Source: Apium graveolens (Eukaryota > Streptophyta > Magnoliopsida > Apiales > Apiaceae). Taken from it: a stretch of DNA of 64,000 bases. Positions 32,052 to 33,639 of this stretch are shown here, one piece after another. The DNA lies in assembly GCF_009905375.1 (NCBI RefSeq), contig NC_133647.1:7015144-7079143 (forward strand), in the 5' to 3' direction. A program made the position numbers and the translations under genes. Position 1 is the first letter of the stretch. Each line of letters begins with the position of its first letter. Under the pieces are notes generated by a model. That model searched no databases, was not told the DNA's origin, and saw nothing but the letters and a program-made list of their open reading frames with translations.

Positions 32052-32327
32052 CAGCATCAAATATGAGCCCTGGATCAAAAGCAGCTCTAGGATTTACATG
32101 GCCACTTCCATAATCAAAAGGTGTAGCTGGGACAAGCGACAAAATCTCAGATCCAGAATATTGTTGGGCTTGAAGAGGCGTCCCTGCCCTGTGAAGTGTA
32201 ATTGATGTCGTCATTAATGCTGATTTAATGGTAGCACGACTCTCGTGAAAGTGTTTCTGCTTTACCAGAGCAGCAATTCCTGCTATATGTGGTGCATCCA
32301 TGCTAGTCCCAGATATCATGGCAAATC
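32052..32327 (-). pseudogene. Captured exon of a subtilisin-like serine protease (SBT2 type)
   Basis: A 276-bp exon (92 codons) is bounded by an AG acceptor (CAG at 32328-32330) and a GT donor (GTAATT, 32051-32046) on the minus strand. It encodes 'FAMISGTSMDAPHIAGIAAL', which holds the active-site serine motif GTSM, then 'ALMTTSITLHRAG' and 'PATPFDYGSGHVNPRAAFDP'. These phrases are typical of plant SBT2 subtilases, extracellular serine proteases. GTSMDAPH has Asp where Ala is usual. No other subtilase exon is visible, and the flanks belong to CACTA-3. It is a captured gene fragment, not a working protease gene. Confidence 0.88.
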
Positions 32328-32419
32328 CTGCACCTACTCCAAGGAAAATGGTTCTTTGAGTTGGTTTTATCATGCATGATGTTACCTGCTTAACTCCAAT
32401 ATTCATATACAATATTATC

Positions 32420-33276
32420 TTATGATGTATCTTTGTATAGCTTCAATTATACATCTCAATTTGTAACCAAGACATGGAGAAATAGATTATAAGGACGTGG
32501 AGTAATTTGTTCTAAATGCACATCTAATGGGTGGAACTAGCTAGAGAAGAATTCACAGTATTTCTGTTGGAAGCAGGCGATGCAGCAACACTAGTGCTTC
32601 TATTGCAGAATACATAGTTGATGCAGGGGGAACCAATCAACAAGAAAAAAAAGGTAATGTACCTCTTTTACCTTGTGTGTGTCAAGTAGACATCAGATGC
32701 CTGTTGCTGCTGCTGATATCACTCGTGGCTGAATGAATAAAGACTTCATATTTGCTAGCTTATGTTCTTTATGTTTGTCATATATTACTTATATGGTCTG
32801 AAGTATGAACTAACGTCTATATAGGATATCCCCTAAGACTTATAATAGCGCAGACATACAGCTCTAAGATGGAATTACTGGCTACTATATGTCAGTACTT
32901 GTTAAAGGATCGTGTCTTTTGGCGGTACAGTTGTGTGGAAAGTTAAAAACATGTAGTCTGCTTACCCTTTTTTTGTTACTGTAACCAATTAATCAGTAAG
33001 CACGGTTTATGATGGACAAATTAGTATTTCCTAATAATTTAGGATTTTTATCCTTTTGGAGTACGAGTACCCTAAATCTAAACAAAACATGATTGGAGAC
33101 ATTGGGCAATATCAACATCTTTAAATATGAACAATTAACAGAGGAGAACAAACAAATTGAATTGGTATGTAAGGAGCGTAATCATACCGATAAACCAGAT
33201 TTTTTTCACTCGCAACAATAGTACAAGAGTACTCGAAACCTGATCATGACATAAAGGACTAGGTCCGTAACCAAAC
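32420..33276. other. CACTA-3 interior between captured fragments
   Basis: No recognised exon. The part just below 33277 is likely the intron that followed the second AKIN-beta-gamma exon. The next exon of that gene is not visible. Confidence 0.5.
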
Positions 33277-33364
33277 CTGGTGGAAACCGGGAGGTAAACT
33301 GCAAATTGTTTAAAAAACAGTAGGGCAACCCTCAACCGGAGACATTTGAAAATGCTCAGTCCAC
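33277..33364 (-). pseudogene. Captured AKIN-beta-gamma exon B (KIS/CBM domain)
   Basis: An 88-bp exon lies between AAG acceptor sequence (33367-33365) and a GT donor (GTTTGG, 33276-33271). It encodes 'WTEHFQMSPVEGCPTVF', a stop, then 'TICSLPPGFHQ'. This matches the glycogen-binding-like KIS domain of plant AKIN-beta-gamma (SNF4-type) subunits of SnRK1, the plant AMPK-like energy sensor. The in-frame TAA is at 33310-33312. The intron before it separates it from exon A at 33486, and both splice phases agree (codon split 2+1). Confidence 0.85.
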
Positions 33365-33485
33365 CTTAAATAAATTCAGCACAATCAGTTAAATGAAAAC
33401 AAGTAAAAAATACAACAATTCAACCACATTTAAAACTGCCGAAAAGTAGCAACGCTAGTTACAAACAAAAATCCTAAACTATCAC

Positions 33486-33577
33486 CCCGTAAATGAACCG
33501 CTGAGATAAACACTTCTGCCTTCATAAGGCCACACAAATCTTGTAGGTATAAGCACTGTCCCAGTAGCAGCAACACC
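33486..33577 (-). pseudogene. Captured AKIN-beta-gamma exon A (start of KIS/CBM domain)
   Basis: On the minus strand the frame gives 'GTVLIPTRFVWPYEGRSVYL' and 'SGSFTG' before a GT donor (GTGATAG). Plant AKIN-beta-gamma proteins have 'TRFVWPYGGRSV.LSGSFTRW' at their N-terminus (recalled family pattern). The exon is fused directly at its 5' end to a ClpC exon with no spacer, so its true 5' part was lost. Exon A plus exon B represent the first third of the KIS domain. Confidence 0.88.
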
Positions 33578-33639
33578 ACTTCAAATTCTCCACGATATTT
33601 TGTTCCAGCAATAAGAAGACCCATATCAAGGGTTATAAC
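33578..33639 (-). pseudogene. Captured exon of a ClpC-type HSP100 chaperone
   Basis: After a T-rich stretch and CAG acceptor (33642-33640) the minus strand encodes 'VITLDMGLLIAGTKYRGEF'. This phrase is the conserved pore/Walker-adjacent segment of the first AAA+ domain of chloroplast ClpC; ClpB proteins have a different version (LISLDMGALIAGAKYRGEF). Only about 20 codons remain before the abrupt junction to AKIN-beta-gamma exon A. The AKIN reading frame is shifted relative to ClpC, so the junction does not make a sensible fusion. Confidence 0.88.

Follow-up and report, generated by a model that had tools for sequence, protein, structure and literature searches.

A CACTA transposon of celery that carries exon fragments from three unrelated genes of its host, and relatives in the same genome that suggest how one piece was taken up

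Introduction

The capture of several host genes by one CACTA transposon is already established. Tgm-Express1, a soybean CACTA element of 5.7 kb in the wp allele, is described in the part of the report available to us as carrying pieces of five host genes and giving rise to many chimeric transcripts (PMC1947982). Pack-CACTA elements of Arabidopsis and maize combine CACTA ends and a 3-bp duplication with host coding DNA inside, and in the excerpts of these papers the maize elements hold several loci per element (PMC8903248, PMC13317346). For Chenopodium, CACTA elements have been described that hold satellite arrays and fragments captured from genes; in the cases covered by the excerpt, a single fragment (Neprosin, AP2) lies outside the coding sequence of the element (PMC8978399). 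The case for how TIR transposons take up genes has, in these partly available sources, been built on adjacent insertions and on the end products.

The element described here lies in a stretch of 64,000 nucleotides from Apium graveolens (assembly GCF_009905375.1, contig NC_133647.1, positions 7,015,144 to 7,079,143), hereafter called the window. A first-pass annotation had proposed that one CACTA element carries, on a single strand, fragments of three unrelated host genes, namely a subtilase (SBT), ClpC and AKIN-beta-gamma, that multi-gene capture of this kind is known, as Tgm-Express1 and the maize elements bear out, and that the combination of genes was, to its author's knowledge, undescribed. 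The celery element resembles Tgm-Express1 in size (about 4.1 kb without a nested element), in its unrelated gene pieces and in the retention of introns, with three genes in the window element and four in relatives as against five. It differs in the genes involved and in the presence, within one genome, of many copies, of a ClpC::PPR joint free of AKIN, and of one donor gene. It shares with the Pack-CACTA elements the ends, the duplication and the enclosed coding DNA, and with the Chenopodium elements, as far as that excerpt goes, the holding of captured gene fragments; here, several genes are found in one element without a frame of transposase length. Among the matches listed in a literature search, there was no paper on the SBT/ClpC/AKIN combination, on such captures in celery or on stepwise capture. 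The element stands out by an unusually readable capture history.

Results

Ends, target site and nested retrotransposon

The element spans 21772-34728. Its ends, CACTACGCCATAGATGGCCT at 21772 and CACTACACCATAGATTGCCT at 34728, are identical at 18 of 20 positions and are flanked on both sides by GAA (21769-21771 and 34729-34731). The entire window was scanned for pairs of CACT[AG]/[TC]AGTG with equal 3-bp flanks and a spacing of 150 bp to 25 kb; this pair scored highest by far, the next listed pair reaching 11/20. The window also provides an empty site: the two flanks, fused at a single GAA, align across the junction to other units of a 176-bp tandem array. The motif GTAAC/GTTAC occurs seven times in the left terminal and subterminal 250 bp (21772-22021; shuffle mean 0.82) and six times in the right 250 bp (34479-34728; shuffle mean 0.85), and neither count was reached in any of 500 shuffles. 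Inverted CACTA...TAGTG ends, a 3-bp target duplication and clustered subterminal short repeats thus place the element among the CACTA (En/Spm) transposons. Helitrons insert without target duplication, and a Helitron identity was ruled out by the 3-bp duplications and the CACTA ends.

As it stands, the element measures 12,957 bp, and the first-pass layout, in which the ends delimit the cargo, holds with one amendment. An LTR retrotransposon of about 8.8 kb is nested in it on the minus strand (22673-31513, LTRs 22673-24206 and 29980-31513), flanked by GTAAT duplications at 22668-22672 and 31514-31518. It is a later insertion and not cargo; its LTRs differ by 31 mismatches over 1529 aligned bp, and it is absent from all 14 other loci that hold both sides of the insertion point. 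Without it, about 4.1 kb of transposon remains. Outside the retrotransposon, the longest stop-free frames have 152 codons (the SBT frame) and 81 codons, so that no frame of transposase length is present, as expected of a non-autonomous copy. At a guess from its translation, 22100-22550 (minus strand) may be a putative transposase remnant.

Several other repeats were noted in the window. Arrays of the 176-bp unit lie at 20212-21681, 21692-21771, 34739-35843 and 38216-39002; the first runs opposite in direction to the second, and the element sits in the first unit past the switch. The third array (38216-39002) is enclosed by two CACTA-like ends, at 37321 and 40167, with 3-bp flanks that differ when compared by eye. 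At 19646, CACTACAAGAAAAC resembles the left end of a different CACTA type, and the stretch 3875-7596 resembles the interior of the nested LTR element (24417-28119) at 79% similarity.

Captured exons in the window copy

The three gene fragments all lie on the minus strand and have kept their exon-intron structure. Four peptides had been named for them, and all are encoded exactly on that strand: GTSMDAPHIAG (32278-32310), SPVEGCPTVF (33313-33342, followed by an in-frame stop), TRFVWPYEG (33518-33544) and the ClpC peptide VITLDMGLLIAGTKYRGEF (33583-33639). The gene identities hold as well. The SBT exon, with some bases of the following intron (32036-32341), is 87.6% identical over 306 bp to a gene on C2 (L037) and matches plant subtilases (E 1.6e-16) and Pfam PF00082 (9.5e-10). 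The AKIN-beta-gamma segment (33253-33578), 94% identical to the gene L045 on C8, comprises part of exon 1 (33488-33578), intron 1, exon 2 (33277-33363, with one nonsense codon) and the start of intron 2; its two exons joined match AMPK1_CBM (PF16561, 1.2e-8) and AMPK beta chains (E 0.0028). Directly joined to the AKIN exon is the ClpC exon piece (33579-33640), 92% identical over 62 bp to L051, a ClpC gene with neighbouring exons. Its 20 amino acids match ClpC chains in the PDB (E 3.9e-5) and gave no Pfam match.

Upstream of the ClpC exon, minus-strand sequence at 33641-33764, with TTCAG at the exon, was read as its intron; it accompanies the ClpC exon whole in two other loci, L046 and L054. 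Upstream of all cargo lies the right-arm module (33765-34300, minus strand), a predicted 5' leader or promoter of the element. It also occurs at 91-96% in L027-L030, loci without any of these cargo modules. At 33120-33254 (minus strand), the window copy is without a PPR exon and additional intron sequence that longer copies hold around this stretch.

Copies and cargo combinations

Further copies, which the first-pass annotation had asked for, were searched for in the 3.33-Gb genome. Both ends were read in 15 elements, comprising the window copy, 13 single loci, and L015/L016, interpreted as opposite ends of a single split element with about 13 kb between them. Perfect 3-bp duplications flank 12 of the 15, no two alike (GAA, AAA, TTG, CTC, TAT, AAT, TGT, GAT, TAA, TTT, TGA and AAG); of the remaining three, L013 and L022 are one base off and L023 shows no match. 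CACTA ends are also present in the copies, with L011 starting CATTA. Because the same ends and cargo are found at sites with different duplications, ends and cargo have moved together, repeatedly, and elsewhere in this genome, too, the ends delimit one element. With host coding DNA between CACTA ends and cargo that moves with these ends, the element belongs to the Pack-TYPE (Pack-CACTA) transposons.

The relatives extend the cargo list of the first-pass annotation by two pieces. In the longer copies, AKIN and SBT are separated by an additional exon, which is the 3' terminus of a PPR gene; it is 90% alike over 90 bp to L036, a locus with 11 PPR_2 stretches (Pfam). A piece of a leucine-carboxyl-methyltransferase gene (PF04072) occurs in the more distant relatives L035, L048 and L052. 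ClpC, AKIN, PPR and SBT are combined in eight single loci (L014 and L018-L024) and in the split element L015/L016, where the SBT exon is about half complete in L024 and the PPR piece three-quarters complete in L023. ClpC, AKIN and SBT are found in the window copy, L009, L010, L011 and L013, and ClpC, AKIN and PPR in L041-L044. The other combinations are ClpC with PPR (L046, L047), ClpC with PPR and methyltransferase (L048), PPR with methyltransferase (L035), ClpC with methyltransferase (L052), and SBT with PPR without ClpC and AKIN (L017). A PP2C-like piece in L046, proposed from a motif, was unsupported by Pfam and PDB and was not counted.

In the module matrix, every cargo piece is oriented like the right arm wherever the right arm is present. 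The right arm is also the more widely shared part, with at least 40 matches (40/40 scored, the best 40 of 809 candidates), some of them in elements whose interiors differ (L029, L030). The left end of the window copy (21772-22552) and that of L018 share about 88% identity over the final 280 bp. Two subfamilies can be distinguished, which have the cargo in common and differ in their left ends. L022 has the window type of left end and yet has kept the PPR exon, which suggests an exchange of element ends. Short SBT matches recur about every 18 kb on C4678, C3399 and C4 (310.67-310.70 Mb), as if in large tandem arrays, and separately PPR pieces recur at about the same interval on C7 (11379-104262), again as if in such arrays. 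L038 and L039 gave no Rfam match.

Donor genes

The AKIN query yielded 21 matches (21/21 candidates scored), consisting of 19 element copies and two genes, L045 on C8 (C8:232438391) and L040 on C5. L045 has a start codon ATG, its exon 1 is identical to the consensus of the copies, its exon 2 is free of the stop of the window copy, and further AKIN exons follow downstream in the adjoining stretch L053. L045 is the AKIN-beta-gamma donor gene. That this 95% match on C8 was one more transposon copy was rejected on reading L045, and element ends (at most 7/21 mismatches) were not found in the 5-kb stretch of L045. The second AKIN gene, L040, is far more distant (75-77%, dS 0.54).

The SBT query gave 34 matches (34/34 candidates scored): the window copy, 16 loci that were read, 16 short matches of about 161 bp (one of them read, L038, a truncated element) and, as the sole gene, L037. 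The copies' consensus differs from L037 by a dS of 0.44 and a dN of 0.06, and 13 SBT copies differ among themselves by a mean pairwise dS of 0.027 and dN of 0.037. Given a dS of 0.44 as against 0.027, most of the distance likely arose before the amplification, under constraint at the protein level. L037, the nearest gene, is therefore best regarded as a relative of the SBT donor and not as the donor, which was not found among the scored candidates. With the AKIN donor on C8 at hand, the reading that the genome lacks all of the donor genes was rejected; a missing donor remains the reading for SBT only. For ClpC, 28 of 39 matches were fetched, and a nearer donor than L051 is possible among the 11 others. 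The ClpC exon also occurs in another repeat-like context common to L049 and L050, and may thus have been captured more than once.

The AKIN junctions

In L046 and L054, ClpC is joined directly to PPR, without AKIN, and the two loci are 96% alike over the 150-bp joint; L054 shows one element end and L046 none. L046 retains 20 bp more of ClpC than the AKIN-bearing copies (16/20 equal to gene L051) and a few more PPR bases. These additional bases make an origin of L046 from AKIN-bearing copies by loss unlikely and give the direction of change; this polarity is read from the 20 bp of ClpC plus the few PPR bases. In the AKIN-bearing copies, about 56 bp of the ClpC::PPR joint has given way to a stretch of about 440 bp from the C8 gene, which begins within exon 1 and extends into intron 2. 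Overlaps of 3 bp are found at both AKIN junctions, AAG with ClpC and GTT with PPR. They are short; the chance of an overlap of at least 3 at one random joint is 0.051 with equal base use, and higher in AT-rich DNA. In the donor L045, homology to L040 continues across the point where the captured stretch begins upstream; its downstream edge lies outside the alignment.

L041-L044 are without about 40 bp at the ClpC/AKIN joint, and L041 therefore has an open chimeric ClpC::AKIN exon (2394-2660, a frame of 89 codons). The absence of SBT from these four loci could be a loss. In L043, two element ends (3940 and 3952) of opposite orientation stand 11 bp apart, the layout assumed by the neighbour-insertion model.

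Discussion

The element ends, the empty site, the other copies and the donor gene agree that a single CACTA element carries, all on the same strand, fragments from three host genes that are unrelated to one another. With a probability of roughly 0.8, we read 21772-34728 as a CACTA element without a transposase-length frame, with SBT, ClpC and AKIN exon pieces on one strand, in which AKIN replaced about 56 bp of an older ClpC::PPR element, likely by template switching in error-prone break repair. We infer the following order of events. An older element would already have joined ClpC to the PPR exon. A break inside this loaded element would then have been filled in by a switch to an unrelated template, the AKIN gene on C8, in keeping with the 3-bp overlaps, and the SBT piece would have been captured last. 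The element would have been mobilised in trans by an autonomous CACTA, and the right-arm module may drive sense transcripts through the cargo.

Two other origins of the cargo were weighed against this reading. In the model published for Pack-CACTA and other Pack-TYPE elements, two related elements flank a piece of a gene, and their outer ends are then mobilised as one hybrid (PMC8903248, PMC13317346). The model is set out in the portions of these papers available to us, and L043, with another element end only 11 bp away, has the arrangement it needs. It predicts element ends at the captured edges, however, whereas the AKIN piece adjoins ClpC and PPR cargo and substitutes for part of their joint; in L045, homology to L040 crosses the upstream edge, and its 5-kb stretch yielded no element ends. 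The AKIN step thus looks like an internal replacement with microhomology, unlike the published route, and neighbour insertion is an unlikely origin of the cargo. This evidence comes from the AKIN piece, at whose junctions the overlaps were read. Heavy nesting in the region, with tandem arrays, an LTR element and other CACTA-like ends, might instead point to host genes of long standing that transposons inserting close by have disrupted, or to an accident of assembly, and not to one mobile element. We see virtually no chance of this, as the same cargo and ends occur at many sites with different target duplications, and related genes lie elsewhere, on C2, C5 and C8. A syntenic host locus broken by transposons is excluded by the copies.

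For the cargo once captured, the question is whether the chimera works as a new gene or as a selected regulator, for example as a source of small RNAs against AKIN-beta-gamma. The common orientation of cargo and right arm, the open ClpC::AKIN exon of L041 and the 116 perfect 21-mers that the window copy has in common with the AKIN gene on C8 speak for such a role. Perfect 21-mers are also shared with the C2 subtilase gene (32) and with the ClpC gene L051 (13), and with such matches small-RNA cross-talk would be possible. Against it, dN/dS among copies is about 1.4, stops interrupt 6 of 13 SBT exons (five with one, L022 with two), and among 14 copies of AKIN exon 2, 10 contain a stop and the remaining four have lost a single base. 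We regard a selected function as improbable; most likely, the captured cargo is passenger DNA that drifts neutrally.

More tentatively, at somewhat less than even odds, the template-switching reading can be widened to mosaic genes built exon by exon inside a CACTA lineage. The state before (ClpC::PPR), the donor (C8) and the state after (ClpC::AKIN::PPR) would then survive in one genome, capture would proceed by microhomology-guided template switching and not by neighbour insertion, and the SBT exon would preserve a gene copy that the plant has lost.

A copy landing in a gene would be expected to supply it with cassette exons in the manner of Tgm-Express1, the soybean element for which RT-PCR showed cassette-exon transcripts. 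Because the AKIN-free element, the donor gene and the AKIN-bearing elements coexist in celery, the joints can be read base by base, and both models of capture become testable. Downstream of the common right-arm module, the candidate chimeric exons run in the sense direction, and they have perfect 21-mers in common with the energy-sensing AKIN-beta-gamma, so that possible small-RNA cross-talk between the transposon and this host gene is directly testable.
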